Source of the DNA: Centipeda noxia ATCC 43541
GTDB lineage: Bacteria; Bacillota; Negativicutes; Selenomonadales; Selenomonadaceae
Length of the DNA: 64,000 nt
Direction of reading: 5' to 3'
Assembly (NCBI RefSeq): GCF_000160555.1
Contig: NZ_GG749280.1
Location: forward strand, 175,890 to 239,889
Part shown: one piece after another, positions 7,951-24,778 of the stretch
How positions within the stretch are numbered: position 1 is the stretch's first letter
How the letters are laid out: the number at the start of each line of letters is the position of its first letter
The notes under the pieces: generated by a model
What the model saw: only the letters and a program-made list of their open reading frames with translations
Told to the model about the DNA's origin: nothing
The model's database searches: none
Position numbers and translations under genes: made by a program

Positions 7951-8063
7951 TCCATATCCTCCCCAATTTACACCCAAATTCTCCTTCTTGCTGAGATGAA
8001 TTATATACAGAGAAAATTGGAAATACGCTAGAATTTTAATTTGAACAAAGGCAGATCAACCGA

Positions 8064-11350: not shown

Positions 11351-12310
11351 CTAAAGGAGGTTCTCGGCGCAGTCAATATCCGTGATCAGCACGTTGATGA
11401 ATCCGCCGCGGATGGCGCCGAGCACGGCGTCCTTTTTATGACGTCCGCCCGCAACGCCGACACGGCGCGGAATCTTTTTCAGCGCGGCGAGCGAAATGCC
11501 TGCTACGCGGTCGTTAAAGTCCTGAAACGGAGTCGTGTCGCCGTTCTCGTCAAAATACCGCAGAGCGATGTCCCCTACCGCACCGCGCACCGTGAACTCT
11601 TCGAGGATCGTGTGATCGACATATCCTGTGCGAAGAATGGTCGAATGCTCGGTTGTGGGGACGCCGATGCCCATGAGCACGAGGTCGAGGCGCGCATACA
11701 GGCGGATCACGTTCTGGATCGTCTTCTCCTGCAAAAACCCTTCGAGGACCTCACGCCGCGAGAACACAGCCGGAGAGAAGAACTGAACACAGTCTCCGAC
11801 AAAGCGATCGGCAAACTCCTGCGCAAGGTAGTTCGAGTGAATATCGAGGCGGCTCTCCGCCACTCCGCCCACAAGCGGCACGAAGGTCGCCTTGATTGGG
11901 CTGCGGATAAAGTAATCCGAACGCACGACATTCTGTATCGAAAGCCCCATCGTAATACCGACGAGATAGCCGTCCAGCAAAACACGAGACAGATACTCGA
12001 GCGTTGCGCTGCCGATCTCAGAGTTGATCGGATACTGTCCGTCCGAGATCGGGCTGGACGGAACGATGATAACCTCCTGCAGATTAAATTTCTTCTCCAG
12101 CTCACGCTCCATCTTCCCGTAGGCGATGTTGTCCGGATTCTGGATCTCGATGCGGACGATGCCGCGCTCCTTGCCGATTGTGAGCATACGCGAGACGGTG
12201 GGACGCGAAATGCCGAGCACTTCGCAGATCTCCTTCTGCCCGAGGCCGTCTTGATAGTAAAGACTGCAGCATTTGAAGATCAAGCGCACATCATCAACAA
12301 TTTTCTTCAT
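11351..12310 (-). CDS. SorC/DeoR-family sugar-responsive transcriptional regulator
   Basis: 319 residues from ATG 12310 (KKIVDDVRLIFKCCSLYY). The N-terminal helix-turn-helix is GLGQKEICEVLGISRPTVSRML (residues ~20-41). The remainder is the SorC sugar-phosphate-binding domain (LVGITMGLSIQNVV, VPLVGGVAESRLDIHSN, GVAGGRHKKDAVLGAIRGG). It sits just downstream of the glucitol PTS genes in the same orientation and is the likely regulator of that operon, though a strong terminator separates them. Confidence 0.88.
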   Translation of the reverse strand: MKKIVDDVRLIFKCCSLYYQDGLGQKEICEVLGISRPTVSRMLTIGKERGIVRIEIQNPDNIAYGKMERELEKKFNLQEVIIVPSSPISDGQYPINSEIGSATLEYLSRVLLDGYLVGITMGLSIQNVVRSDYFIRSPIKATFVPLVGGVAESRLDIHSNYLAQEFADRFVGDCVQFFSPAVFSRREVLEGFLQEKTIQNVIRLYARLDLVLMGIGVPTTEHSTILRTGYVDHTILEEFTVRGAVGDIALRYFDENGDTTPFQDFNDRVAGISLAALKKIPRRVGVAGGRHKKDAVLGAIRGGFINVLITDIDCAENLL

Positions 12311-12385
12311 GGCAACCCCCTTTTGCGTACAGAACACATTCTATCTTTTGTCATCCTCATTGACATATTTTCTATCAAATTGCTG

Positions 12386-12429: not shown

Positions 12430-12801
12430 TCAGTAGACCTCGATGCTGGCTCCCATCTTGACATCCTCTTTCGTGAGCGGAGCATCCCCCTGCAGCATGA
12501 TGCAGCCGGGCCGTTCGGGCGTCGTTCCGCCCTTGAAGGAGAGTGTGCAGTGACCGAGTTCCTTCAGCGTATGCAGCGCCTCATCGCCGATCGCCGTGAT
12601 GTTGAACGCCTTATCACAGATGATCATCGTGTCGCCGACCGCAGGGTCTGCATTGTAATTCGCCGGCGTATGCAGGACAGAGAACTCCGCCAGCTCCGCC
12701 GGAGCATTGTTGTTGAAGATAATGATGAAGTTGGCGTTCGGGTCATCCAGGAAGAGGAGAGCCTCCTCGCCCCAGCTCGTGATTTCACAATAGAATTTCA
12801 T
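12430..12801 (-). CDS. srlB: PTS glucitol/sorbitol-specific IIA component
   Basis: 123 residues from ATG 12801 with GGGGGATG upstream; longer in-frame starts overlap the previous gene. KFYCEITSWGEEALLFL, EFSVLHTP and GGTTPERPGCIMLQGD match the glucitol-type IIA family, which takes phosphate from HPr on a histidine (probably that in SVLHTP) and passes it to IIB. Last gene of the operon. Confidence 0.88.
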   Translation of the reverse strand: MKFYCEITSWGEEALLFLDDPNANFIIIFNNNAPAELAEFSVLHTPANYNADPAVGDTMIICDKAFNITAIGDEALHTLKELGHCTLSFKGGTTPERPGCIMLQGDAPLTKEDVKMGASIEVY

Positions 12802-12832
12802 ACCGCATCCCCCTGTCTTGCCAGACTGTTTC

Positions 12833-13360
12833 CTATGCCTGTTTTTCCTCACGGCGCTTCATATAGAGATAGATCTTCTCGGTGACGATGCCGCGAATCA
12901 GGATGACGACAATGCCGACGAAGAAATAGCGGACGGCAAGATCACCGAGCGGCAGTCCGAGCGCCGTAATGCCGGCCGCAATCCCCATATAGACGAAGAG
13001 TTCGCCGCCGTTCGCATGGGGGAAGAGTCCCGTCACGGGATGCACGAAGCTGACCGCCGCGTCATAGTAAGCGGGTTTGTACTTCTGATCGACAAAGTTG
13101 CCGAACGTATAGCACATCGGGTTGCCGAGGAAAAGCACCGCCAACACGGGCAGCACCGTATAGCGCGTGATGATGTTCTCCGTCGCGCGCTGGGCCACAC
13201 CGTTCACGCGCTCCTCACCGATGAGTTTGATCAGCGAGTTGACCGCCGTCATCATGATGACGAGCAAGGGAATGATCCCTGTCACCCACGAGGTAAATGT
13301 CGCCGCACCTGCGCGGAAGAGATCCATAAAGCCGTTTGCTGCTGCTGCTATCAGTTCCAT
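12833..13360 (-). CDS. srlA: PTS glucitol/sorbitol-specific IIC component
   Basis: 175 residues from ATG 13360 (ELIAAAANGFMDLFRAGAATF), with GGGAGGG upstream. Four to five membrane segments; FLGNPMCYTFGNFVDQKYKPAYYDAA and HPVTGLFPHANGGE are hallmarks of the GutA/SrlA membrane subunit. With SrlE it forms the sugar channel. Confidence 0.9.
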   Translation of the reverse strand: MELIAAAANGFMDLFRAGAATFTSWVTGIIPLLVIMMTAVNSLIKLIGEERVNGVAQRATENIITRYTVLPVLAVLFLGNPMCYTFGNFVDQKYKPAYYDAAVSFVHPVTGLFPHANGGELFVYMGIAAGITALGLPLGDLAVRYFFVGIVVILIRGIVTEKIYLYMKRREEKQA

Positions 13361-13379
13361 AATACTATATCCCTCCCGA

Positions 13380-14372
13380 TTAGTAAAGTCCAATGCTTGC
13401 CGCATAGGCGATCAGCACCGCCAGAGGGCCTGTAATGACACGCGAGTAGAGAACGGCCGGAACGCCGAGCTCGATCGTCTCGGGATCCGCCTCGCCAAGA
13501 CTGAGTCCGACGGGGACGAAGTCGGCGCCGACCTGCGCGTTAATCGCAAAGAGCGCGGGCAGCGCATACTGCGGCGGGATGTTGCCCATGCCGATCTGTG
13601 CGCCGAGCAGCGTGCCGACGACCTGGGCGATGACTGCACCCGGGCCGAGAACCGGTGAGATGAACGGAATCGCGCAGATGAGCGAGATGACGAGCATGCC
13701 GGGCAGCGTGCTCGCGAGCGGTGAGATAGTATTCGCAATGATATTGCCAAGTCCCGAGACGCTGATGATGCCGAGAATCATGGAGACGAACGCCATGAAC
13801 GGCAGGATGCTCTTGATCGTGATGTCGATCGTCTCGCGTCCCGCGGCATAGAACTTATTGACAACGCCGCCGATCGCGATGCCGAGGCGCGTGACAAAAT
13901 TCTTTTCGCGCCCGCTCTGCAGCGCTGCGATCTCCGCCTTTGCCTGCGCCTTGCTCTTAGGCGCATAGGCGGGTGCTGCCTCTGCCGCGGCCGTGCTTTC
14001 CGCCTCGTCCGCATAGGACAGACAGGACATATCGACGGCCGAAACGTAGAGCTCCTTCGTAATAAACTGCGCAAGCGGCCCTGTCTTGCCGACAGGCAGA
14101 ACATTCGCCGTCAGAATACCCTTTTTCGGATAGACGCCGCAGCGCGCTGTACCGCCGCAGTCCACAACAGAGAGCAGGATCTCCTCATCCGGCACCCCTG
14201 TCGAGAATCCATCCACCGTCTCACAGCCCGTCATCTCTGCAATCTGCGCTGCGAGCGGGTGAACGCCGCCGCCCGTAACGCTGACGATCTTATTCCGCGT
14301 CTCCGTCGGAACAAGGACGAGCGGACCTCCCCAGCCCCCTTTTCCTGCGACAATCTTCACAGATTTATACAT
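13380..14372 (-). CDS. srlE: PTS glucitol/sorbitol-specific IIBC component
   Basis: 330 residues. The N-terminal IIB domain starts VKIVAGKGGWGGPLVLVPTE; the phosphorylated cysteine is probably in VDCGGTARCGVYPKKG (~residue 72). After a variable Ala/Glu-rich linker (~140-165), a IIC-like membrane domain follows (GLGNIIANTISPLASTLPGM, PVLGPGAVIAQVVGTLLGAQIG). Phosphorylates the incoming hexitol. No sorbitol-6-phosphate dehydrogenase gene (srlD) is in the operon or window. Confidence 0.92.
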   Translation of the reverse strand: MYKSVKIVAGKGGWGGPLVLVPTETRNKIVSVTGGGVHPLAAQIAEMTGCETVDGFSTGVPDEEILLSVVDCGGTARCGVYPKKGILTANVLPVGKTGPLAQFITKELYVSAVDMSCLSYADEAESTAAAEAAPAYAPKSKAQAKAEIAALQSGREKNFVTRLGIAIGGVVNKFYAAGRETIDITIKSILPFMAFVSMILGIISVSGLGNIIANTISPLASTLPGMLVISLICAIPFISPVLGPGAVIAQVVGTLLGAQIGMGNIPPQYALPALFAINAQVGADFVPVGLSLGEADPETIELGVPAVLYSRVITGPLAVLIAYAASIGLY

Positions 14373-14428: not shown

Positions 14429-14830
14429 CTATGCAGGGTCCGGCTCCTCTGCCGGCTGCAGGCGCGTCATCAGCGCCTCGAGCGCCTGCATATGCCCCTT
14501 GTAATGTGCGCGCCGCTTCTCCGGGAGCGCCGCATACTCCTCATGCAGACGGTAAATCGTCCGCCCCACGATATCCTCCATCGGACGGAAGCGGCTGAGG
14601 ATGGTCATCCCCTGCATCATGCGTCCGTCCAGAATCTCGCCGTCCGAATTGCAGGCGATGATCACGATGTTCGAGGGACCGAGCCGGCGGCGGCGCGAAC
14701 CGATGCCGACATTGCCCAATTTGTGCATCTCGCGCACGGCGCGCTTGTACTCCCTGACCTGCAAATGCGTGCCGGCCACTTGGATGACAAACAGCAGAAA
14801 CAGTCCGCCGAGAAGCATCTCCGTCTGCAA
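14429..14830 (-). CDS. gutM: Glucitol operon activator GutM
   Basis: 133 residues from a TTG at 14830 (GGGAGG 7 bases upstream); an upstream GTG at 14848 overlaps that site. One N-terminal membrane helix (MLLGGLFLLFVIQVAG) is followed by the GutM domain (VREYKRAVREMHKLGNVGIG, GPSNIVIIACNSDGEIL). GutM proteins are membrane-linked activators of glucitol PTS operons. First gene of the operon. Confidence 0.85.
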   Translation of the reverse strand: MQTEMLLGGLFLLFVIQVAGTHLQVREYKRAVREMHKLGNVGIGSRRRRLGPSNIVIIACNSDGEILDGRMMQGMTILSRFRPMEDIVGRTIYRLHEEYAALPEKRRAHYKGHMQALEALMTRLQPAEEPDPA

Positions 14831-14982
14831 GAAATCGCCTCCCTCCACGTCGTCTTCATGTATCGATTGAATTATAGCATCGGGTGATATTTTTTACAAT
14901 AAATACTTTATTGAATTTTTGTAAATGTGCTTCCATGCAGACTGATGCTCTTGTCTTTTGTTCCAATCCTTATGCGCCGAAT

Positions 14983-15010
14983 GAAAAAGCTGCCGAAAAT
15001 CGACAGCTCG
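14983..15010 (-). terminator. Terminator of the aldolase gene
   Basis: Stem AGCTGTCG / CGGCAGCT (one G-T pair) with a short loop and a T5 run on the minus strand, directly after the stop at 15016. Confidence 0.8.
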
Positions 15011-15015
15011 CGTGC

Positions 15016-15849
15016 TTATATTTTGGAGATAAGATTGATGTAATGCGTAAGCACCCTGCGCATTCCCTCGTCCGCCGCCTTCTGCGTCTCGATCAGCGAG
15101 TCTGTATGCGCCGCCTTGATCTCCGCCATCGCACCCGTGAGGAAATCCGTATAGATGTTCAGCTTCGCAATGCCCTCGCGTACGGCGCGGCGCAGATTCT
15201 CGTCGCCTGTGCCCGAGCCGCCGTGCAGGACAAGCGGAACGGGTACGGCGGCAGCGAGTTCGCGCAGGCGCGTGAAGTTCAGCTCCGGCGCTTTGTTGCT
15301 CTTGTAGACGCCGTGCGAGGTGCCGATGGACACGGCGAGAGAGTCGACTGCCGTCGCCTCTGCGAATGCCTTCGCCTCCTCCACCGTCGTATAGACGCTC
15401 TCCGAGGTCGCTCCCTCGACCCCCTCCGAGGCACCGCCCACATGTCCAATCTCTGCCTCGACACTGACGCCCTTCGTATGCGCGTAGGCGACCACTTCCT
15501 TAGTCAGGCGGATGTTCTCGTCCATCTCTTTCATTGACGCATCCAGCATAACAGAGGTAAAGCCGAGCTCGATCGCACGGCGCAGAAAATCGAAATCCTG
15601 TCCGTGGTCGAGATGCAGGACAATCGGGGTCGCCACTTTCTCCGCCCAATATTTGCCGACGAGAGCTGCCTCCTCGAGAGAGATGAGCCCCGCATGCCCC
15701 TGCGCAAAGGAGAGCAGGATCGGCGTCTTGAGCGCGTCCGCCGTCTGAACGAAGACACGCGCGGCGTTCAGCGTGAGAAAGTCGGGGGCGACAATACCGT
15801 AGCGCCCCGCCTTTGCGGCATCGAGAACGGATTTTCCATCGACCAACAT
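15016..15849 (-). CDS. Class II fructose/ketose-bisphosphate aldolase
   Basis: 277 residues from ATG 15849 (AAAGGAG at 8 bases; a GTG at 15858 is less well placed). Zinc site VLHLDHGQD, EAEIGHVGG, and phosphate-binding LVLHGGSGTGDE identify a class II aldolase of the GatY/KbaY/FbaA group. It cleaves or forms a ketose-1,6-bisphosphate with DHAP. It lies downstream of the gntR gene in the same direction, with an operator-like palindrome between them, and across from the TIM-like gene. Confidence 0.9.
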   Translation of the reverse strand: MLVDGKSVLDAAKAGRYGIVAPDFLTLNAARVFVQTADALKTPILLSFAQGHAGLISLEEAALVGKYWAEKVATPIVLHLDHGQDFDFLRRAIELGFTSVMLDASMKEMDENIRLTKEVVAYAHTKGVSVEAEIGHVGGASEGVEGATSESVYTTVEEAKAFAEATAVDSLAVSIGTSHGVYKSNKAPELNFTRLRELAAAVPVPLVLHGGSGTGDENLRRAVREGIAKLNIYTDFLTGAMAEIKAAHTDSLIETQKAADEGMRRVLTHYINLISKI

Positions 15850-15930
15850 GGGGATCACTCCTTTATCTTCCTGAAACCGAATGCGTATGCGCTCATGATA
15901 TTTCAGCGCGGCCCGTTTGTCAATTATTTA

Positions 15931-15944
15931 TTTACCAGTGGTTA
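15931..15944. promoter_or_regulatory. Operator-like palindrome upstream of the aldolase gene
   Basis: TTACCAGTGGTTA, a near-perfect 13-base palindrome overlapping the gntR stop. It matches the palindromes in the gntR / TIM-like intergenic region (TTACCTATGGTAA), so it is a candidate GntR operator for the aldolase gene. Confidence 0.55.
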
Positions 15945-16673
15945 TTCCTTCGCTGTCGAACGGACGCGGAAACGGCTGCGGAATGCGTCCGCCTTCGCCG
16001 TCGCATACTGGATAACGCGCCCTGTGCGGTCTGTCGTCAGAATCCGTGTGACGAAAATCGGCGCCTGCTCCTCCACCTTGAGATAGAGCGCAATCTCGGG
16101 CGCGGCATGAATAACCTCGATGGTCTTATCCTCCGCATAGGGGTGAATACCATGCGCCTCAAGGGTGCGCAGGAGGCCACTGCTCGTAAAGTCGACATGC
16201 ATAAGCTCTGGACAGAGCGCGAGCGGAATGTAGTCGTCCGTCACCGCATAGATATGCTCGTCCACGTAGCGCAGACGCTTCAGATGGAAGACGAGCGTCT
16301 CTGCCGCAACGCCGAGCATCGCTGCGAGATTGCCGCGCGCGGGCTCAACAACCTGCTGGAGCACTGTGCTCCGCGTAACGCGTCCCTCTGCGGAGAACAT
16401 TTGGGCAAGGCCGAACCCGCGCGTCTGCACCTCGGAATAGTCTACGGGAATTTTCTCCCCCGTGTAGAACGATCCGCGCCCCTGCATGCGCACGATTTTA
16501 TTCTCTGCCTCGAGCAGCTCGAGTGCCTTGCGCACCGTCGGACGGCTCACGCCGAGCTGCTGACACAGCTCCCGCTCTCCTGGGATGGGAGAGAAATAGG
16601 CAAGATCCGCGAACTGCCGCTCTATCGCATCGCGGATTTTCTCATGCAGACGCTGCTGCTTTTTGCTGGTCAT
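15942..16673 (-). CDS. GntR-family regulator with UTRA domain
   Basis: 243 residues. The winged helix-turn-helix spans residues ~8-72 (RELCQQLGVSRPTVRKALELL, then MQGRGSFYTG). The C-terminal ~150 residues are a UTRA ligand-binding domain (HutC type). It probably senses a sugar phosphate and controls the aldolase gene (same strand) and the divergent TIM-like / YjbQ pair through the TTACC-n3-GGTAA sites. Confidence 0.9.
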   Translation of the reverse strand: MTSKKQQRLHEKIRDAIERQFADLAYFSPIPGERELCQQLGVSRPTVRKALELLEAENKIVRMQGRGSFYTGEKIPVDYSEVQTRGFGLAQMFSAEGRVTRSTVLQQVVEPARGNLAAMLGVAAETLVFHLKRLRYVDEHIYAVTDDYIPLALCPELMHVDFTSSGLLRTLEAHGIHPYAEDKTIEVIHAAPEIALYLKVEEQAPIFVTRILTTDRTGRVIQYATAKADAFRSRFRVRSTAKE

Positions 16674-16758
16674 AACGCGCCGTCCTTTTCTTTTACTTTT
16701 GTTATAGTATGTGATTACTTATCCTTTTGTCAACAGGAAAGCATATTGCAAACGCGTT

Positions 16759-16792
16759 TTACCTATGGTAACATTTTATTATCCAATGGTAA
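16759..16792. promoter_or_regulatory. Tandem GntR operator candidates between gntR and the TIM-like gene
   Basis: Site 1, 16759-16771: TTACCTATGGTAA, a perfect 5-base dyad with a 3-base centre. Site 2, 16779-16792: TTATCCAATGGTAA, the same dyad with one extra base. Both resemble the site at 15931. They lie 31-64 bases before the ATG at 16823, where they could block or overlap a promoter. Confidence 0.6.
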
Positions 16793-16822
16793 TATTTCAT
16801 TCTGATACAGGAGGGCTTTATC

Positions 16823-17530
16823 ATGAAGAGCAGTCTTGCACCGTTCCTCGTTGTCAATCCGAAATCCTATCTCTACGGCAAGGAATCGCTCGCGCTTGCA
16901 CAGGCTGCCGATGCCGCCGCCAAGAAAACGGGGCTGAAGATCTACTTCACCTGCCCCTTCTCCGATATCCGCTATATCCGCGAGAACACCGACGCGATCA
17001 TCGTCACGGCACAGGCGATGGAGAGTCTGAAGCCGGGACGCGGCATGGGGCATCTCCTGCCCGAGGCGCTGTATGAGGCAGGTGCGCGTGCGACCTTCCT
17101 CAACCATGCGGAGAATCCCATGACGATGGCGGAACTCGCAAAGACCATCGCCCGCGTACGAGAGCTCGGCATCGAGACGATTGCCTGTGCGGATTCCCTC
17201 GCTGAGGGCACGGCCATCGCCGCATTTCATCCGGATATCCTGCTCTGCGAGCCGACGGATCTCATCGGCACGGGCAGGACTGCAGACGACAGCTATACCA
17301 CATCCATTGTTGCAAAGATCCGTAGCATTGATCCAACGATTGCCGTCATGATTGCCTCGGGCATTACAACGGCGGACGATGTCTACCGCGTTGTCCGCCT
17401 CGGTGCCGACGGCAGCGGCGCAACAAGCGGCATTCTGAACGCCCCTAACCCGGCGGAGCGCATTATGGAGATGGCAGAAGCCATCGTGCGTGCTGCGGCG
17501 GTACGCGAATCCGAGGAAAGCGCAGCATAA
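16823..17530 (+). CDS. Archaeal-type triosephosphate isomerase
   Basis: 235 residues; CAGGAGGG precedes the ATG. VVNPKSYLYG supplies the catalytic N12 and K14; FLNHAEN carries the His and LLCEPTDLIGTGR the catalytic Glu of the TIM family; MIASGITTADDVYRV and GADGSGATSGIL form the phosphate loop. The pattern is that of short archaeal-like TIMs, which in bacteria are often accessory enzymes in unusual sugar pathways rather than the glycolytic enzyme. The gene is paired with yjbQ (11-base gap) and divergent from gntR/aldolase, so it may act on the aldolase product or a tetrose/pentose phosphate. Confidence 0.8.
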   Translation: MKSSLAPFLVVNPKSYLYGKESLALAQAADAAAKKTGLKIYFTCPFSDIRYIRENTDAIIVTAQAMESLKPGRGMGHLLPEALYEAGARATFLNHAENPMTMAELAKTIARVRELGIETIACADSLAEGTAIAAFHPDILLCEPTDLIGTGRTADDSYTTSIVAKIRSIDPTIAVMIASGITTADDVYRVVRLGADGSGATSGILNAPNPAERIMEMAEAIVRAAAVRESEESAA

Positions 17531-17541
17531 GGAGAAGAGAT

Positions 17542-18063
17542 ATGACGGTCTTCAAGAAGAAACTGACGCTCGAATCCCACGGCGGAACGCCGACCTTTAT
17601 CAACATCACCGAGGAACTCCGCACGGCCATCGCCGAGAGCGGCATCCGGGAGGGGATCGCCACGGTGATCTCCCCGCACACGACCTGCGCCGTCTTCTTC
17701 GAGGAGTTCGTGCACGATGTCGACGAGACGGGCACCGAGTTCCTGCAGAACGATCTGAACGCCGTCCTCGAGAAGATCATCCCCGACCAGACAGGCTGGA
17801 ACCAGTACCAGTATCCGGGCGAGGAGCATTACCGCGCGGTCGAGAGCTGGCCCGATGCGGAGGCATACCTCCCGGGCGGCGACCGCAAGGCACTCTGGAA
17901 CTGCGACGCCCACCTCAAGGCAACTCTCATCGGCTCGTCTGAGACCTTCGAAGTCACCGACGGCAAGCTCGGCGTCGGAACAACCGGCTACTGCTACTTC
18001 GTCGATTTTGACCGCACGCGTGCCCGTACGCGCAAATGCATCATCGTCGTCATGGGCGAATAA
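17542..18063 (+). CDS. YjbQ/UPF0047 family protein
   Basis: 173 residues, with AGGAG before the ATG. TVISPHTTCAVFFEEFVHDV and CDAHLKATLIGSSETF are the two conserved His-containing motifs of the YjbQ family. Some family members have weak thiamine-phosphate-synthase activity, but the true role is unsettled, and several occur in sugar-phosphate operons. Longer than typical (~140) because of an insertion around ENDLNAVLEKIIP...GEEHYRAVESWPDAEAYLPGGDR (two separated segments). Second gene of the TIM-like operon. Confidence 0.85.
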   Translation: MTVFKKKLTLESHGGTPTFINITEELRTAIAESGIREGIATVISPHTTCAVFFEEFVHDVDETGTEFLQNDLNAVLEKIIPDQTGWNQYQYPGEEHYRAVESWPDAEAYLPGGDRKALWNCDAHLKATLIGSSETFEVTDGKLGVGTTGYCYFVDFDRTRARTRKCIIVVMGE

Positions 18064-18078
18064 GAATACAGAGAACGC

Positions 18079-18116
18079 AGAACCGCCGCATTGCAATTTC
18101 ATGCGGCGGTTTTCTG
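18079..18116 (+). terminator. Terminator of the TIM-like/yjbQ operon
   Basis: AACCGCCGCAT (18081-18091) and ATGCGGCGGTT (18101-18111), perfect 11-base arms followed by TTTCTGTTT. Confidence 0.88.
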
Positions 18117-18238
18117 TTTGACGTTTTAAGTTGACAAGAGAAAAAGGATAAGGTATTCTAACAACAAGCAAATGACAAAATTATTATAATATAACGATTT
18201 GACTGCCGGTAACGAATATATAGGACTTATTGCATTTA

Positions 18239-18260
18239 AAAAAGGGATATATCCCTTTTT
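18239..18260. promoter_or_regulatory. 22-base perfect palindrome upstream of the iron-chelate uptake operon
   Basis: AAAAAGGGATA plus its exact complement, with no loop, 63 bases before the permease start. It could be an operator, or a hairpin in the 5' leader. Confidence 0.4.
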
Positions 18261-18270
18261 CTTTTCGTCT

Positions 18271-18285
18271 ATTATTGAAAATAAT
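18271..18285. promoter_or_regulatory. Fur-box-like inverted repeat
   Basis: ATTATT-GAA-AATAAT, a perfect 6-base dyad resembling half of the AT-rich Fur consensus, 38 bases before the permease ATG. Consistent with iron repression of the operon; not proven. Confidence 0.45.
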
Positions 18286-18322
18286 TACACCTCTCATAAA
18301 TTACAGAACGGAGCTATTATAT

Positions 18323-19348
18323 ATGGAAGCATTGGAAAAAGATCTCTGCGCAGATGTACATCCGCGTACACTGAAGCGGCGTCTGGCGCTGGGGATCGGC
18401 TTCCTCGTACTCCTATGCGCGCTGCTCGTAAGTGCATCATCGGGTGTGGTCGAGATCGCTCCGCATGATCTTCTCCCGACACTTCTGGGAAGCGGCAGTC
18501 CGGAGGACTATCGCATTCTCTGGCATATTCGGCTGCCGCGCATCATCACGGGTGCACTGACGGGCGTCAATCTCGCGCTCGCGGGCTGCATTCTCCAGGG
18601 CATTCTGAAAAACCCGCTTGCCGACCCCGGAATCATTGGTGTTTCCGCCGGTGCGGGGCTCGCCGCCATGTGCATCATGATCCTGCTGCCGGCTGAGACG
18701 AAGTTTGTTCCGCTCGGTGCGTTCGTCGGGGCAATCATCGCCGTGGCGCTCGTCTTTGCGCTCTCCTGGGAAAACGGCGTGCACCCGATGCGTATGGTGC
18801 TCGCAGGCGTTGCAATCGCAGCGTTTTTCGGCGGGGCGATGACGGCGCTGATGGTTTTTTACTCCGACCGCGTGCAGGGCACGGTGAACTGGATGGCAGG
18901 CGGATTTGCCGGGCGCAGCTGGAGCCATGCAGAGATGGTTCTCCCCTACACCCTCGTCGGCCTCGCGGGAACGCTGCTCGGCAGCCGCTGGCTGAACGCT
19001 CTGCAGCTCGGCGAGGAGACCGCGCGGAGCCTCGGTGTGAATGTCCCGCGCGCCCGCTTGATCCTCCTCATACTCGCTGCGCTGCTTGCCGCATCGGCCG
19101 TGAGCGCCGCCGGCATGCTCGGTTTTGTTGGGCTCATTATCCCGCATATGGTGCGCCTTTTGACAGGTTCGGATTTTGATTGGCTGCTGCCCGTATCGGC
19201 GATCTGGGGAGCGGCCCTTGTGACCGGCGCGGATGCGGCGGCACGCGTCGTTTTCGCACCGGTGGAGGTCCCGGTCGGCGTATTCATGTCCTTCTTGGGC
19301 GCTCCCTTCTTTCTCTATCTGCTCAAAAAAGGCATGCGAAGGGGGTGA
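18323..19348 (+). CDS. FecCD-type iron-chelate ABC transporter permease
   Basis: 341 residues from ATG 18323, with CGGAG upstream. Nine to ten membrane segments. LPRIITGALTGVNLALAGCILQGILKNPLADPGIIGVSAGAGL (seen in separate motifs) and GFVGLIIPHMVRLLTGSD are FecCD/BtuC signatures. It forms the homodimeric inner-membrane channel for siderophore, heme or cobalamin. No cobalamin riboswitch is visible upstream, and the Fur-like box favours iron. Confidence 0.92.
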   Translation: MEALEKDLCADVHPRTLKRRLALGIGFLVLLCALLVSASSGVVEIAPHDLLPTLLGSGSPEDYRILWHIRLPRIITGALTGVNLALAGCILQGILKNPLADPGIIGVSAGAGLAAMCIMILLPAETKFVPLGAFVGAIIAVALVFALSWENGVHPMRMVLAGVAIAAFFGGAMTALMVFYSDRVQGTVNWMAGGFAGRSWSHAEMVLPYTLVGLAGTLLGSRWLNALQLGEETARSLGVNVPRARLILLILAALLAASAVSAAGMLGFVGLIIPHMVRLLTGSDFDWLLPVSAIWGAALVTGADAAARVVFAPVEVPVGVFMSFLGAPFFLYLLKKGMRRG

Positions 19349-19352
19349 CGAT

Positions 19353-20162
19353 ATGGAGGAACTGCTGCGGGCGCACGATCTTTCCGTCGGCTACGGACGC
19401 GCGGAGATCATTCATTCGGTCAACGTTTCCATCCGCCGCGCGGAGATCTCCGCCATCATCGGGCCAAACGGCTCTGGCAAGTCGACGCTCCTAAAGGCAC
19501 TCGCCCGACTCTTGAAACCACGCAGCGGATCGGTGGAGTTCCTCGGCGCCGACATCTGGAGCAAAACAGAGCGGGAGATCGCACAGAAGATTGCCTTTCT
19601 GCCGCAGAGTGCGGACCCGCCGGGCGATATTACAGTGCTCGAGCTCGTCCGCATGGGACGGCTGCCGCATCGGAGCTTCTGGGACACGTTTTCCAAAGAA
19701 GATAGGGATATCTGCTGTGAGGTGCTTTCCCGCACGGGGATGGAAGCCTTTGCCATGCGGCCGATCCGCGCACTTTCCGGCGGTGAACGCCAGCGCGCAC
19801 GTCTGGCGATGGCGCTCGCCCAGCAGCCGGAAGCGCTGCTCCTCGACGAGCCGACAACATATCTTGACATCCGTCACCAGCTCGCGCTGATGGAGCTTGT
19901 GGAGCAGCTGCACGATATGCTCGGTCTCACTGTCGTCATGGTGCTGCACGATCTCAATCAAGCGGTGCGCTATGCCCAGCGCCTCGTTGCCGTCCGCGCC
20001 GGAGAGATTCTCGCAGACGGCGCACCCAGCGCGGTATTCACCCGTGAACTCGTACGCAATCTTTACGATGTGGAGAGCCGCGTCAGCGATATCGAGATCG
20101 CGGGCAGATGTACAAAGCTCTGCCTTCCGGAACGCGTTGCAAAGGTAGCGGCAGTCCAATAA
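19353..20162 (+). CDS. FecE-type ABC transporter ATPase
   Basis: 269 residues from ATG 19353, with GGGGGTG just upstream (overlapping the end of the permease gene). Walker A GPNGSGKST, Q-loop FLPQSADP, signature LSGGERQRARLAMALAQ, Walker B ALLLDEPTTYLD, and the switch His in VMVLHDLNQA. Energises the FecCD-type permease. Confidence 0.93.
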   Translation: MEELLRAHDLSVGYGRAEIIHSVNVSIRRAEISAIIGPNGSGKSTLLKALARLLKPRSGSVEFLGADIWSKTEREIAQKIAFLPQSADPPGDITVLELVRMGRLPHRSFWDTFSKEDRDICCEVLSRTGMEAFAMRPIRALSGGERQRARLAMALAQQPEALLLDEPTTYLDIRHQLALMELVEQLHDMLGLTVVMVLHDLNQAVRYAQRLVAVRAGEILADGAPSAVFTRELVRNLYDVESRVSDIEIAGRCTKLCLPERVAKVAAVQ

Positions 20163-20206
20163 GGCACGATCAAATCATCATTGACAGCATCCAATCGGAG
20201 GTATTT

Positions 20207-21157
20207 ATGCGAAAAGCAGGCATCATCACGGCGCTGCTGTGCCTCGCGGCAGCGGCGCTCTTCCTTCTCTGGCCGCGGGCACAGCAGCCGCCGGAACCGC
20301 AGGAACTCACGGTGACGGACAGCACGGGGCGCCAGGTCACGCTGCCGACACATCCGCAGCGTGTCGTCATCCTCAACCCCTCGAACCTCGATCTCTATGT
20401 CGCAGCAGGCGGCGCCGAGAACGTCGTCGGGAAGCCGACCTCACAGGCGCTCTCCGAGACGGTGAAGGAAAAGACGGCAGCAGCCGAAGAGGTCGGCATC
20501 ATACACCAGCCCGACATGGAGAAGATTCTCGCGCTGCAACCCGATCTCGTCATTGGTACGAATGTGCCGTTCCATACAGCCCTCGAGGAGGCTCTCAGCA
20601 ATGTCGGCGTGCCGCTCTACATCCAGGCACTGGACGATGTCCCCTCGCTGTTCGGTGCGCTCGAGCTGTACGGCAGACTCACGGGTCATGAAGACGACGC
20701 CGCAGCGCAGATCGCAGCGATCCGGCAAAAGCTCGATGCTGTAAAGAAAAAAGCCGACGGCCGCACACCGCCGAAGAATCTCCTCGTCTTCGGCGCACCG
20801 GACAGTTTTAACATGGGCACATCAAAGTGCTTTACGGGCGGCCTCATCGACATGCTCGGCGGCGGCAATATCGCAGACCGGGCGGAGGGTGACGGTGCCT
20901 ATCTGCCGATCTCCATGGAGTTCGTCGCACGCGAGAACCCCGCTGTGATCTTCGTCATCGTACACGGTCCGGCGGATACGCTCGAGCCAAAGATGCGCCG
21001 TGAGCTGCAGGAGAGCGAGGCATGGGCCGATGTGGATGCCGTGAAAAACGGCCGTGTCTACGTTCTGCCGTACGAACTCTTCGCCGTGAATCCCGGCATT
21101 CGCGCCGCAGACGCACTCCAAACGCTCGCGGACATCATGTACCCGACGCCGCAGTGA
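20207..21157 (+). CDS. Iron-chelate-type ABC substrate-binding protein
   Basis: 316 residues from ATG 20207 (GGAGG at 5 bases). One N-terminal hydrophobic helix without a lipobox cysteine, so it is either secreted to the periplasm or membrane-tethered. TVTDSTGRQVTLPTHPQRVVIL is the standard start of the BtuF/FepB/FhuD fold (Peripla_BP_2), and MEKILALQPDLVIGTN is the usual second strand. Binds a metal chelate delivered by the TonB receptor encoded next. Confidence 0.9.
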   Translation: MRKAGIITALLCLAAAALFLLWPRAQQPPEPQELTVTDSTGRQVTLPTHPQRVVILNPSNLDLYVAAGGAENVVGKPTSQALSETVKEKTAAAEEVGIIHQPDMEKILALQPDLVIGTNVPFHTALEEALSNVGVPLYIQALDDVPSLFGALELYGRLTGHEDDAAAQIAAIRQKLDAVKKKADGRTPPKNLLVFGAPDSFNMGTSKCFTGGLIDMLGGGNIADRAEGDGAYLPISMEFVARENPAVIFVIVHGPADTLEPKMRRELQESEAWADVDAVKNGRVYVLPYELFAVNPGIRAADALQTLADIMYPTPQ

Positions 21158-21290
21158 AAGGAGGCCGTGCCAGAACAGACGAAATATCTTTGGGAGAGCA
21201 GAACGAGGCATCAGCGGCGACGCGCCAAAATTTCCCGCGCGGAGTTTTGGTGCACGCCACGTTTGATATACAGTGATAGGAGATGGAAAG

Positions 21291-23264
21291 ATGTTCCACA
21301 AGCACACGAAGAAGAAAGTCCTTCTGACCGCCGCCGTACTCAGCGCGGTATCGATCCCCGCCTATGCGGCGCAGCGTGCGGAAAATGCGCCCGAGACGCT
21401 GGTCCATACGGATGAGATTGTCGTCACGGCATCCCGCACAGAGCAGGAGGTCAAGGAGACGCCGAGTGCCGTCGAGGTCATCACACGCGCAGACATCGAC
21501 AAGATGGGCGCAGAGACACTCGCGCAGGCACTGAAGCTGGCCATCGGCATCGACATACAGGAGAACGCGATGGTCGGCAACCGCTCCGCCATCCGCGGCA
21601 TGAATACGAACCAGACGCTCATCCTCGTCGACGGCCGGCGCGTCCGCACGGAGAACACGAGCGAGACGATGAACTACTACGAGCTACAGCGCATCAACAT
21701 GGACGACGTGGAACGCATCGAGATCGTGCGCGGCGCCGCAAGCTCGCTCTACGGCTCGGAGGCACTCGGCGGCGTCATCAACATCATCCGCAAGCACCCC
21801 GATAAAGCACAGGCAGCGCTGACACTCGACTGGACCACCCGACAGAGCGATCAGGGCATCCGCCTCGACTCCGGAAAGGTCGGAAAATGGGCGTTCAGCA
21901 CGAGCTTCAAACACACGGATGTACGTGAGCGCGGCACCGACGCCCGCAGCAGCATGTACGGCAAAAAGTATTTCTTCAACATCGACGGCCGTATGGATGT
22001 AGCGCAAAACAAATGGCTCGATGTCTTCTTCGACTACCTGAAGGAAGACCTCTATATGAAGGACTCGCTCACGCAGGGCACAAGCTACGACCACGACCGC
22101 TTTTCCACGGGCGTCAAGTATTCCGGGCGCGACCGCCGCGGCGACTACGAGCTGCAGACCTACTACACCTATTTCGACAAGAATCAGCGCACGCGGAACC
22201 GCGCAAGCGGCGGTCTCAACAGCTTTGATGATATGAAGTACAACTCCCTGATCTTCGACGGCAGGCGCTCCATGCAGATCGCGCCGAATCATCTGCTGAC
22301 CGTCGGCGGCGAATACCGCAAGGAGGACTACGAGAGCACGCGTATCAAAGGCTCACACACCAAAACACTTGAGGGCGTGACCAATCAGCTCGGCGACAGC
22401 TCGATGAATTTTGCGGCGCTCTACGTCCAGGACGAATGGGTCGCCGGTTCGCGCTGGACGGTCATCCCGTCCGTCCGCTGGGACTACAACGACGTATTCG
22501 GCAGCGAGGTGACCGGCAAACTCGGCACAACTTACAAGATCAACAAGGGCCTGCGCTTCAAGGCGAACATCGGCACCGCCTACCGTGCGCCGACCGCAAG
22601 TGAGCTCTACTTTGACTGGCGTCATTCGCCGGCTGCTCAGGTCAATGTCCACATTGTTGGAAATCCCGATTTGAAGCCCGAAAAAGCATTTAACTTTGAT
22701 GTCGGAGTCGAGGGAGAACGCGGCAAGACATTCGGCAAACTCACCTATTTCCACAACAAGGTGGAGGATCTCATCAACATCAATACGGTCATGACCATTA
22801 TCCCGGGATTTCCGCCGACCAGACTCATGACCGGGACGTACAACAATATTGAAGATGCAACGATTCAAGGCGTCGAGTTCGAGGCAAAGCAGGATCTCGG
22901 CAGTGGCTTTTCCCTGCGCGGTCTCTACACCTATCTCGACGCACGGGACGATCAGACAAATGCGCGCCTAACCGGACGCGCCCGCCACAAGGCAAGCCTG
23001 CAGCTCAGCTACGATGACCCGCGACACGGCTGGAACGCAACGCTCTGGCAGGACTGGATCTCCGGGTATCGATATGCGGAGACGATCGGTAGGCGAACCG
23101 TTTATAAGGATGCCGCCCTTGGTCTCATGAACTTCGTCGTGACGAAGAAATTCAACGACCAGTTCAGTGCCTACCTCGGCGTCGACAACATCTTCAACAA
23201 GGAGAGTGACGCCCTTGCTTACGACGGCCGTATCTGGCGCGGCGGCGTACGCATGACGTTCTGA
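21291..23264 (+). CDS. TonB-dependent outer membrane receptor
   Basis: 657 residues from ATG 21291. Signal peptide (VLLTAAVLSAVSIPAYA), TonB-box region and plug domain (DEIVVTASRTEQEVKETPSA; RGMNTNQTLILVDGRRV; VRGAASSLYGSEALGGVINI), then a beta-barrel rich in alternating aromatic residues that ends in Phe, as outer membrane barrels do (GGVRMTF). It imports a metal chelate across the outer membrane, which shows the host is diderm. Last gene of the uptake operon. Confidence 0.94.
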   Translation: MFHKHTKKKVLLTAAVLSAVSIPAYAAQRAENAPETLVHTDEIVVTASRTEQEVKETPSAVEVITRADIDKMGAETLAQALKLAIGIDIQENAMVGNRSAIRGMNTNQTLILVDGRRVRTENTSETMNYYELQRINMDDVERIEIVRGAASSLYGSEALGGVINIIRKHPDKAQAALTLDWTTRQSDQGIRLDSGKVGKWAFSTSFKHTDVRERGTDARSSMYGKKYFFNIDGRMDVAQNKWLDVFFDYLKEDLYMKDSLTQGTSYDHDRFSTGVKYSGRDRRGDYELQTYYTYFDKNQRTRNRASGGLNSFDDMKYNSLIFDGRRSMQIAPNHLLTVGGEYRKEDYESTRIKGSHTKTLEGVTNQLGDSSMNFAALYVQDEWVAGSRWTVIPSVRWDYNDVFGSEVTGKLGTTYKINKGLRFKANIGTAYRAPTASELYFDWRHSPAAQVNVHIVGNPDLKPEKAFNFDVGVEGERGKTFGKLTYFHNKVEDLININTVMTIIPGFPPTRLMTGTYNNIEDATIQGVEFEAKQDLGSGFSLRGLYTYLDARDDQTNARLTGRARHKASLQLSYDDPRHGWNATLWQDWISGYRYAETIGRRTVYKDAALGLMNFVVTKKFNDQFSAYLGVDNIFNKESDALAYDGRIWRGGVRMTF

Positions 23265-23336: not shown

Positions 23337-24659
23337 TTACTTCAGCGCATAGCCGTTGTTGTACATCTTGTCCTGCTCTTTGCGAACCTGGTAAAGCTGC
23401 GTCGAGGTGTCGAGCTCAACCATGTCGAGGGTGAGGAGCGTGCCCTTCTTGACGTCGCACTTCATGCGCGTGTTCTTGTTCACGAGGGCGTAGACGACGT
23501 AGCCCTTTTCATACGTCTCCTGCGCCGTTGCAATGGAGCCGTAGGTGGTGTAGCCGCCGATGCCGTCAATCGTTTCGCCTGCCTTCAGATCGCGCTTGGC
23601 GACGGCGATGCACTCGCTGACGGGGCCGTCAAGCGGAATGATGGTCGGTTCGCCGTCGATGACGATCTTCGCGACGGTGAGCGGTGTCTCAAGGTTGCAG
23701 AGATGATAGGGACGATAGAGCGTCCAGAGGGGGCCGGGGCCCATGCTGTGATAGCCCATCTGATAGGCGATCTCTTCGTTCTGCGTTGTGACGGTGACGA
23801 AGACGCCGGGCGCAATGCCGTTGACGTACTCCACAACGCCGTGCCTGCCGAGAATGCCGCCGTCCTTCTTGAGTTTGAAGATCTCGTTGAGCTCGGCGCA
23901 GCGATCCTTCGGCGATGCCGATGGGCCGTGTCCGCCGATCACATCCGGAATGAGCCCGGTTGCGTTCGACATGGCGGTCATCTCGACCATGGTCTTCGTA
24001 CCATCTTTGAACGAGGTGAGCATGCGGGGGCTCATCTTGCGACGTGTCGCCTCCTCGAGTACGGTGTCGGGATTGCAGTCGTAGTCGAGCTTGTTGTTTT
24101 TGCCCTTGCCCATGACCTTGACTTCCATGCCCATCGCGCGCGCAAAGGAGTAGAGCTCCATGACGGCACCCGGCTCATCGCCCGCAGAACCCGTATAGAT
24201 GACGCCGTTCCTGTCGCCGAGTTTTTTCAAATAGCTGCCGATGACAACGTCTGTCTCCACATCCATCATGACAACATGCTTCTTGTTGTTCATCGCATCA
24301 ATGGCAATCTTGACGCCGACCTCAGGCACGCCCGTCACGTCGATCGCAACCTCGACAAGATTTGCCTGCGAAATAAGGTCCGAGTTCTCCGTCGCAACGT
24401 ACTTTCCCTGCTCCATGAAGCGGTTCGCCTCTTCGAGCGTCTTTGCAACGGCGATATCCTCGTCGCTGATGCCCGCATAGTGGAACGCATTGATGACATT
24501 GTCCATCTTGATATCCGAGACAATCGCCGGCATAATGCCCTTCATGAGTGCCATCTGCGTTACCATGCCGCGGCCCATCTGCCCCGCGCCGACAATGCCC
24601 GCACGGATGATCTTGCCCTCTTCCTCGCGCTTTGCGAGCTTCTTGTCCATATTCAGCAT
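23337..24659 (-). CDS. Homoserine-dehydrogenase-like oxidoreductase with SAF domain (COG4091 type)
   Basis: 440 residues from ATG 24659 (AAAGGAG at 7 bases). An N-terminal Rossmann fold (AGIVGAGQMGRGMVTQ) is followed by an oxidoreductase domain with GVIYTGSAGDEPGAVMELYSF, and from ~residue 345 a SAF-like C-terminal domain (AKRDLKAGETIDGIGGYTTYG). These are called predicted homoserine dehydrogenases but lack the ACT domain of the biosynthetic enzyme; the substrate is unknown. Single gene between two terminators. Confidence 0.78.
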   Translation of the reverse strand: MLNMDKKLAKREEEGKIIRAGIVGAGQMGRGMVTQMALMKGIMPAIVSDIKMDNVINAFHYAGISDEDIAVAKTLEEANRFMEQGKYVATENSDLISQANLVEVAIDVTGVPEVGVKIAIDAMNNKKHVVMMDVETDVVIGSYLKKLGDRNGVIYTGSAGDEPGAVMELYSFARAMGMEVKVMGKGKNNKLDYDCNPDTVLEEATRRKMSPRMLTSFKDGTKTMVEMTAMSNATGLIPDVIGGHGPSASPKDRCAELNEIFKLKKDGGILGRHGVVEYVNGIAPGVFVTVTTQNEEIAYQMGYHSMGPGPLWTLYRPYHLCNLETPLTVAKIVIDGEPTIIPLDGPVSECIAVAKRDLKAGETIDGIGGYTTYGSIATAQETYEKGYVVYALVNKNTRMKCDVKKGTLLTLDMVELDTSTQLYQVRKEQDKMYNNGYALK

Positions 24660-24778
24660 TGCGAAACTCCTTTCGCCCACCCGTCGGTGGAGTTCATAAT
24701 CATTTGTCCGGATCCAGTATAGCACCGTATCTTTATTTTTACAATATCATATTCACTGAATTTGCGTAAACATCACAG

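Follow-up and report, generated by a model that had tools for sequence, protein, structure and literature searches.

A putatively GntR-controlled isomerase and aldolase module near a glucitol-type PTS and DXR-II in Centipeda noxia, with a possible role in 2-C-methyl-D-erythritol catabolism

Results

Organization of the locus

The stretch of DNA analyzed here, which we call the window, comprises 64,000 nt of Centipeda noxia ATCC 43541 (GCF_000160555.1, contig NZ_GG749280.1, positions 175,890-239,889 of the forward strand). The comparisons include a genus sample of 14 genomes and a phylum sample of 398 genomes. The relevant features, in window coordinates, are as follows.

11351-12337, minus strand: SorC-type sugar-binding regulator (PF04198)
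12430-12852, minus strand: srlB, glucitol-type PTS subunit (named by reading, from position and BLAST-matched counterparts in related loci)
12833-13405, minus strand: srlA, glucitol-type PTS subunit (named by reading, on the same grounds)
13380-14372, minus strand: srlE, glucitol-type PTS subunit (family scans)
14429-14848, minus strand: gutM (PF06923)
14987-15009, minus strand: terminator-like hairpin 3' of the aldolase gene
15016-15858, minus strand: class II (FBA/GatY/KbaY-type) aldolase (PF01116, 275 bits; TIGR00167 above cut-off)
15895-15923, minus strand: sigma-70-like aldolase promoter, TTGACA-17-TATCAT, adjoining operator 1 (a consensus match only, 11/12 positions)
15932-15944, no strand: predicted operator 1, TTACCAGTGGTTA, TTACC-n3-GGTAA with one mismatch
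15942-16673, minus strand: GntR/HutC-type repressor with UTRA sensor domain (PF00392, PF07702)
16759-16771, no strand: predicted operator 2, TTACCTATGGTAA, exact TTACC-n3-GGTAA arms
16780-16792, no strand: predicted operator 3, TATCCAATGGTAA, TTACC-n3-GGTAA with two mismatches
16823-17530, plus strand: archaeal-type TIM-like isomerase (NF003302, 177 bits; cut-off 132)
17542-18063, plus strand: long-form YjbQ/UPF0047 protein, 173 aa, with a helical insert in the middle (PF01894 and TIGR00149 above cut-off)
18083-18109, plus strand: terminator-like hairpin 3' of yjbQ, a 9-base loop followed by TTTT (read by eye; the loop exceeds the limit of the hairpin scan)
23337-24725, minus strand: DXR-II (DRL) oxidoreductase (PF21135)

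The four module genes, which encode the aldolase, GntR, the TIM-like protein, and YjbQ, were confirmed as real, as were the operators. The nearest solved structure to the aldolase is that of the YdjI aldolase (6ofu). The score of the window aldolase against the FBA class II equivalog TIGR01859, 241 bits, lies below the cut-off of 343 bits, and every score against the tagatose-bisphosphate aldolase (GatY/KbaY) models falls below cut-off. The repressor joins a GntR HTH to a UTRA domain, the combination that marks the GntR/HutC family. The TIM-like protein is a predicted isomerase of the archaeal-type TIM family with structural relatives 1hg3, 2h6r, and 1w0m. Its residues N12, K14, H95, and E143, which we take to be the catalytic Asn, Lys, His, and Glu, are unchanged across 17 aligned sequences. 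The initial annotation had regarded this gene as a second TIM rather than the only one of the genome; indeed, a canonical TIM is encoded elsewhere (C19, 313.6 bits).

YjbQ is the sole UPF0047 protein of the genome. Family models above cut-off and the fold of its predicted model (pLDDT 88.4; UPF0047 fold, Z 15-19) place it in this family. At high Z, a VIA-align comparison of the fold listed only UPF0047 entries, nine of them with Z 15.2-18.7; no other entry exceeded 5.0, which provides no hint of function. The YjbQ family bears the name secondary thiamine-phosphate synthase, and an excerpt of PMC7954711 gives the function of the family as unknown.

A predicted GntR regulon

Three TTACC-n3-GGTAA palindromes had been proposed to tie the four genes into one regulon. 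All three sites are present, but only operator 2 has exact arms. Allowing up to two mismatches, TTACCANTGGTAA occurs four times in the window, with three sites at the module; shuffled windows (n = 100) contained a mean of 0.57 sites and none of the 100 reached four. A control set of 70 loci without this GntR yielded 67 sites in 1.077 Mb. The proposal depended on the operators being present in relatives, and one or two predicted sites lie in the gap between GntR and the TIM-like gene in 8/8 GntR-bearing loci (window included). A counterpart of operator 1 at the GntR 3' end and aldolase front is found in seven of these eight loci; in the exception (L113), SorC sits between GntR and the aldolase. 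A locus that contains no GntR (L020) has zero operator sites at its module. Because the operators are kept with GntR and absent where GntR has been lost, these comparisons support the prediction that the four genes form one GntR regulon. The genome-wide palindrome scan suggested by the initial annotation found TWACCNNNGGTWA at three places, two of these at the module. A regulon wider than the module was set aside, the sole further match having a different core.

The neighboring glucitol-type PTS

The window PTS shares SrlA, SrlE, SrlB, and GutM homologues with the glucitol/sorbitol PTS operon (srlAEB, gutM, srlD) but has a SorC-type regulator and no srlD; inspection by eye of ORFs of at least 80 aa between positions 8000 and 26000 revealed no SDR-type protein. 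The second Srl PTS of the genome (L210) carries SrlD (NF004817, 425 bits), and this is the true sorbitol system. A plain sorbitol operon was thus rejected for the window, since srlD accompanies the second PTS.

In the genus sample, the window-type SrlE orthologue (90-100%) is confined to the nine genomes that bear the module, so that the PTS occurs in 9/9 genomes with the module and 0/5 without it. This pattern may reflect a single event, because DXR-II is 82-85% identical in the five module-less genomes and 94-100% identical in the other nine. The initial annotation had speculated that the module receives an unusual sugar phosphate from the neighboring PTS. The genus co-occurrence supports such a PTS-delivered substrate, as do a one-strand row of module, DXR-II, and PTS in a Lachnospiraceae genome (L026) and Gat-type PTS operons elsewhere that carry the same three enzymes.

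DXR-II in the window and the genus

A siderophore-uptake cluster separates the module from DXR-II, whose true start is likely about 22 codons inside the ORF. The initial annotation had overlooked this oxidoreductase. It matches Brucella DXR-II (3upl) over its full length (residues 21-455, 9.8e-104) with 44% identity over the compared positions (179/407). It retains 12/12 diagnostic residues (K191, K193, T229, R320, E174, F178, Y322, G121, G248, H250, V351, and E353), sites described as functional or DXR-II-typical in PMC3847144. DXR-I was not found in the genome, which does have IspG; across the genus sample, DXR-I occurs in 0/14 genomes and DXR-II in 14/14. Given the complete set of residues, the presence of IspG, and the absence of DXR-I, the enzyme very likely handles DXP/MEP. 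Judged by gene content, isoprenoid synthesis in this genus must also depend on DXR-II, and its nearness to the module could therefore be incidental.

Neighborhoods of DXR-II and of the module elsewhere

Genome-level co-occurrence of module and DXR-II is weak across the phylum sample, in which only 4/12 module genomes carry DXR-II; the remaining eight have a Gat-type PTS or other partners. Where both are present in this sample, they lie within about 10 kb of one another in 4/4 genomes (G000, G013, G331, and G280). They likewise lie within that distance in L026 and L023, and linkage is seen again in L082, L023, and L106. G028 and G033 carry both, though not together, and 1 Mb separates them in G011. 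The composition of the module varies as well: GntR lacks an adjoining aldolase gene in S. artemidis (L019), a class II aldolase/adducin protein (FucA/ribulose-1-phosphate-aldolase-like) replaces the aldolase in L115, and Enterococcus faecium plasmids encode YjbQ without TIM. The TIM-YjbQ pair persists in PTS operons across families.

We fetched 30 DXR-II loci of the phylum sample (L081-L108, L119, and L120). In 22 of them, DXR-II has two or more Srl PTS genes no farther than 9 kb away. Other DXR-II loci have an ABC transporter and sugar kinase, or an MFS transporter and FGGY kinase, as neighbors, as expected of a catabolic enzyme. Such company, a PTS or a transporter with a kinase, is found across Firmicutes and Alphaproteobacteria, and PTS-linked DXR-II copies keep 10-12 of the 12 diagnostic residues. 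Genes for an E1-E2(-E3) complex related to PDH and acetoin dehydrogenase, with E1 and E2 bearing the NCBIfam name pyruvate dehydrogenase, adjoin DXR-II in 15/30 loci, as they do on Rhizobiales, Terrarubrum, and Priestia plasmids. The script counted 16/30; L096 was removed because its E1 matches show 28-30% identity and sit next to a transaldolase-like gene, so that we read them as transketolase halves. Also left out of the count were L091, which the contig end truncates and which shows E1-alpha alone, and L107, whose frames are broken.

Discussion

We tentatively propose a catabolic pathway fed by the PTS, in which the adjacent Srl PTS and DXR-II form the upstream half, the module forms the downstream half, and 2-C-methyl-D-erythritol (ME) is the likeliest substrate. 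Plants make 2-C-methyl-erythritol. The PTS would convert ME to MEP, and DXR-II acting in reverse would oxidize MEP to DXP. An excerpt of PMC13001223 calls Dxr reversible, and, according to its title, Testa 2004 (in the reference list of PMC3994034) reported ME transport by a sorbitol PTS in Salmonella. Two fates of DXP can be envisaged. DXP is a methyl ketol like acetoin, and an E1-E2 complex would split it into acetyl-CoA and glyceraldehyde-3-phosphate. In the window, YjbQ would shift the carbonyl from C2 to C3 and the TIM-like isomerase from C3 to C4, beside the phosphate-bearing carbon, generating a 5-deoxypentulose 1-phosphate that the aldolase would cleave to DHAP and acetaldehyde. Occupying the three operators, GntR would repress the aldolase gene on one side and the TIM-yjbQ pair on the other until a sugar phosphate in the UTRA domain frees it. 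The FucA-like stand-in for the aldolase in L115 favors this scheme. The weak co-occurrence of module and DXR-II in the phylum sample, the genomes in which the two lie apart, the missing aldolase gene in S. artemidis, the pyruvate dehydrogenase names of E1 and E2, and YjbQ without TIM in E. faecium speak against it.

A somewhat unlikely alternative is that the PTS imports another polyol or a tetritol/pentitol, which a DXR-II-like (or other) enzyme turns into a ketose phosphate. The TIM-like protein and YjbQ would then act like LerI, which is TIM-like, and DerI, which is RpiB-like, to form erythrose 4-phosphate, while the aldolase makes sedoheptulose bisphosphate or cleaves a ketose 1-phosphate. 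LerI and DerI convert L-erythrulose 1-phosphate to erythrose 4-phosphate (PMC10733421, excerpt). In Shinella, the TIM-YjbQ pair occurs with an SDR, a TIM-barrel protein, and an FGGY kinase, an erythritol-like layout with YjbQ at the place of RpiB. Transaldolase/Fsa-type genes by DXR-II in L. salivarius, L096, and L097, two of which (L. salivarius and L096) also have transketolase-type genes, likewise fit an ordinary ketose phosphate better. Left unexplained, however, are the E1-E2 complexes and the strictly kept diagnostic residues of PTS-linked DXR-II.

It is unlikely that the module is instead a stand-alone route fed by other PTSs, with DXR-II nearby only because the genus uses it for isoprenoids and the adjacent PTS irrelevant. 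The module does have its own repressor and terminators, DXR-II is the only DXR throughout the genus sample, and many Firmicutes modules accompany a Gat-type PTS with no DXR-II beside them; yet the shared distribution of module and window-type PTS across the genus sample, the L026 row, and the recurrent linkage argue against it. Extra glycolytic capacity (G3P/DHAP, FBP) with YjbQ as a bystander, perhaps thiamine-related as the family name implies, is very improbable, for despite the intact TIM catalytic residues, the canonical TIM and the aldolase scores below FBA cut-offs led us to reject a glycolytic second TIM, and the TIM-YjbQ pairing is kept in PTS operons of several families.

If ME catabolism is the correct reading, it would reveal bacterial use of this compound, assign a first physiological role to the widespread YjbQ family, and hint at why many bacteria hold a second, seemingly spare isoprenoid enzyme. 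The gene neighborhoods offer a testable answer, namely that DXR-II is part of a catabolic row. A broader and rather doubtful extension holds that DXR-II arose as, and in many bacteria remains, a catabolic ME enzyme, with a DXP-cleaving dehydrogenase complex or a cascade of carbonyl shifts at the end of its pathway; its recruitment in place of DXR-I would have come later. YjbQ would be the missing isomerase of the cascade. With the phosphate-bearing carbon numbered P0, TIM-like enzymes would interconvert carbonyls at P1 and P2, YjbQ those at P2 and P3, and HxlB those at P3 and P4, which would explain why YjbQ occurs with the TIM-like protein and aldolase or with HxlB and Rpe/AlsE. Open-access searches on ME or DXP catabolism, on DXR-II neighborhoods, and on YjbQ with HxlB turned up no paper whose title or opening abstract lines report a pathway of this kind.

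Several known systems resemble parts of this scheme. E1-alpha, E1-beta, E2, and E3 genes like those of acetoin and pyruvate dehydrogenase complexes adjoin DXR-II elsewhere, where we propose that the complex cleaves DXP; none lies beside DXR-II in the window. The 5-deoxyribose/DHAP shunt splits 5-deoxypentulose 1-phosphate into DHAP and acetaldehyde, the same end as proposed here, but reaches the intermediate by another route, and most of our loci contain an FBA-type rather than a FucA-type aldolase. In the erythritol and threitol pathways with LerI and DerI, for which the Brucella names are EryH/EryI, a kinase and a polyol dehydrogenase stand upstream, whereas here the PTS and DXR-II do so, YjbQ occupies the RpiB-type place, and a class II aldolase is present. 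No kinase, polyol dehydrogenase, or RpiB-type isomerase was recognized beside the window module, which thus falls outside these pathways. For Brucella DXR-II (3UPL), the published role is isoprenoid synthesis (PMC3847144); here and elsewhere, its gene belongs to PTS or transporter-kinase rows, a setting on which that paper is silent (0 occurrences of "sorbitol" or "catabol"). A chemical parallel to the proposed cascade is offered by LerI and DerI (PMC10733421, excerpt). There too, a TIM-type isomerase moves the carbonyl beside the phosphate-bearing carbon, with a second isomerase acting before or after it.

Proposed pathway and module proteins

We propose that the module serves catabolism of 2-C-methyl-D-erythritol (ME). 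The glucitol-type PTS would convert ME to its phosphate (MEP), a carrier step for which a 2004 paper by Testa, cited in PMC3994034, reportedly provides precedent, going by its title. DXR-II working in reverse would convert MEP to DXP, YjbQ would convert DXP to a 3-keto form, the TIM-like enzyme would yield the 4-keto form, and aldol cleavage of the latter would give DHAP and acetaldehyde. In other bacteria, a complex encoded by E1-alpha/E1-beta/E2(/E3) genes related to pyruvate or acetoin dehydrogenase would split DXP to acetyl-CoA and glyceraldehyde 3-phosphate; either route would leave a triose phosphate and a two-carbon unit. We infer both the substrate, ME, and the reverse direction of DXR-II; Dxr is stated to be reversible in PMC13001223.

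The module is divergent: the minus strand carries the aldolase and GntR genes, the plus strand those for the TIM-like protein and YjbQ. Both arms close with terminator-like hairpins, that 3' of yjbQ being spotted by eye. The class II aldolase scores under the cut-offs of family models for FBP and tagatose-bisphosphate equivalogs, and its nearest solved structure is YdjI. Family models and structural relatives place the TIM-like protein in the archaeal-type subfamily; Asn12, Lys14, His95, and Glu143 are invariant across 17 aligned module proteins. YjbQ (173 residues) belongs to the long form of UPF0047 by family models, with 37 positions invariant among 16 aligned sequences and the UPF0047 fold recovered by fold comparison of its predicted structure (pLDDT 88.4).

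Probable control by GntR

The initial annotation described three TTACC-n3-GGTAA palindromes; three sites were found at the module, one exact and two near matches. TTACCANTGGTAA-type sites occupy the GntR-TIM gap in 8/8 GntR-bearing loci, window counted, and operator-type sites lie at the opposite end of gntR in seven of these. GntR proteins of loci L082 and L113 are just 47–56% identical, yet sites in the gap are kept there, and none was found at either position in L020, which has no GntR. Because the sites are kept with GntR, missing without it, and above background (the rate across 70 control loci being 1.24 sites per 20 kb), there is good sequence evidence that GntR binds these putative operators and controls all four genes. 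The annotated single regulon is supported in relatives, every GntR-bearing locus having sites.

The neighboring PTS

The TIM-like gene occurs in 9/14 genomes of the genus. SrlE 90–100% identical to that of the window is found in the same nine and in 0/5 others, which have at most a 54–56% paralogue. This agrees with the earlier suggestion that the neighboring PTS may feed the module, and we conclude that the window PTS belongs with it. The co-occurrence may reflect a single gain or loss, because the five module-less genomes may form one lineage (DXR-II identity 82–85%, against 94–100% in the others). No sorbitol-6-phosphate dehydrogenase was found with the window PTS, and therefore sorbitol does not suggest itself as the substrate. 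The source genome has another such system on contig C19, with a dehydrogenase matching NF004817 at 425 bits:

L210 8197-11073: second glucitol PTS (GutM, SrlA, SrlE) with sorbitol-6-phosphate dehydrogenase

SrlB was not seen there, and this PTS may share that of the window. Window SrlB orthologues persist in genomes without the remaining window PTS genes (L201, L203, L204).

DXR-II as the oxidoreductase

DXR-II is the missing oxidoreductase of the proposed pathway: the product of the gene at 23337-24725 can be aligned with Brucella DXR-II from end to end and has 12/12 residues given as functional or family-typical in PMC3847144. DXR-II adjoins yjbQ, or lies one small ORF off, in L018, L019, L020, and L021; in the window the two are parted by:

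18230-23264, plus strand: siderophore/haem-type uptake cluster (FecCD permease, ABC ATPase, binding protein, TonB receptor), named by eye

IspG is present in the source genome, where DXR-I was not found; the genus has DXR-II in 14/14 genomes and DXR-I in 0/14. Since this is so, DXR-II in the genus must, judging from gene content, make MEP for isoprenoids, and the substrate pair of the window enzyme is very likely DXP/MEP. Among other relatives, 26/27 have DXR-I, four of these also with DXR-II.

DXR-II neighborhoods in other bacteria

DXR-II occurs in 41/398 phylum-sample genomes, weak matches included. Thirty loci with at least 41% identity were fetched (L081-L108, L119, L120), 22 with at least two Srl PTS genes within 9 kb and 15 with an E1-alpha/E1-beta pair (one of 16 script counts was dropped). 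The TIM-YjbQ pair also occurs at L082 and L106. DXR-I accompanies DXR-II in 19 of 36 genomes checked (33 sample genomes and three relatives). Genomes G154, G187, G262, and G333 each have two DXR-II copies, and DXR-I was not found in them; in several of them a PTS gene row holds one copy and the second is solitary, which suggests separate catabolic and biosynthetic copies. Arrangements on annotated plasmids are as follows:

Rhizobium N324, S. meliloti Rm41, A. tumefaciens CFBP7129: DXR-II, then E1-E2(-E3, LipA), beside ABC transporter and sugar kinase
Terrarubrum: DXR-II, then E1-E2(-E3, LipA), beside glucitol PTS
Priestia: DXR-II, E2-E3, MFS transporter, FGGY kinase
Listeria innocua: DXR-II and glucitol PTS, complex absent

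Importer and kinase types change between these rows, with DXR-II and the complex constant, the pattern expected of a catabolic pathway. In NCBIfam the E1/E2 genes fall under pyruvate dehydrogenase; we infer DXP cleavage by analogy, because the DXP end is acetoin-like. A Cys-rich protein of 95–108 amino acids follows DXR-II/E1-E2 rows and some TIM-YjbQ/Gat rows (L086, L092, L097, L131, L132); no Pfam family was found in the two scanned.

The TIM-YjbQ pair elsewhere

In the loci read, long YjbQ accompanies sugar-phosphate isomerases, epimerases, or aldolases:

Streptococcus massiliensis, Aerococcus, Anaerococcus, Enterococcus faecium pQL50, Lacticaseibacillus paracasei, others: TIM-YjbQ, aldolase, Gat-type PTS
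L115: TIM-YjbQ, FucA/ribulose-1-phosphate-aldolase-like gene replacing aldolase
L136, L137: TIM-YjbQ, HxlB (TIGR03127 over cut-off), Rpe/AlsE-like epimerase; fructose-type PTS in L136
L135: TIM-YjbQ, FGGY kinase, Zn-dehydrogenase, SIS protein
Shinella: TIM-YjbQ, SDR, TIM-barrel protein, FGGY kinase
E. faecium and L. paracasei plasmids: YjbQ without TIM, with Rpe and HxlB

On the last plasmids (L145, L146), Gat-type PTS, YjbQ, Rpe-like, and HxlB genes form a single row; 153 Enterococcus plasmid records carry YjbQ. In L030, the TIM-YjbQ/Gat module sits between dxr (DXR-I)-like and rseP-like genes (by eye), an isoprenoid/cell-envelope row, probably by chance.

Several results count against the proposed pathway. 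The module and DXR-II co-occur weakly across the phylum (DXR-II in 4/12 module genomes) and lie apart in G011, G028, and G033; S. artemidis has no aldolase gene adjoining GntR; transketolase/transaldolase-type neighbors occur in L. salivarius and L096; and some plasmids carry YjbQ without TIM. For Gat-type rows without DXR-II, imported 1-deoxyxylulose would suit the same logic. The YjbQ and TIM-like steps of the proposed route would resemble the two-isomerase logic of LerI/DerI, as described in PMC10733421.
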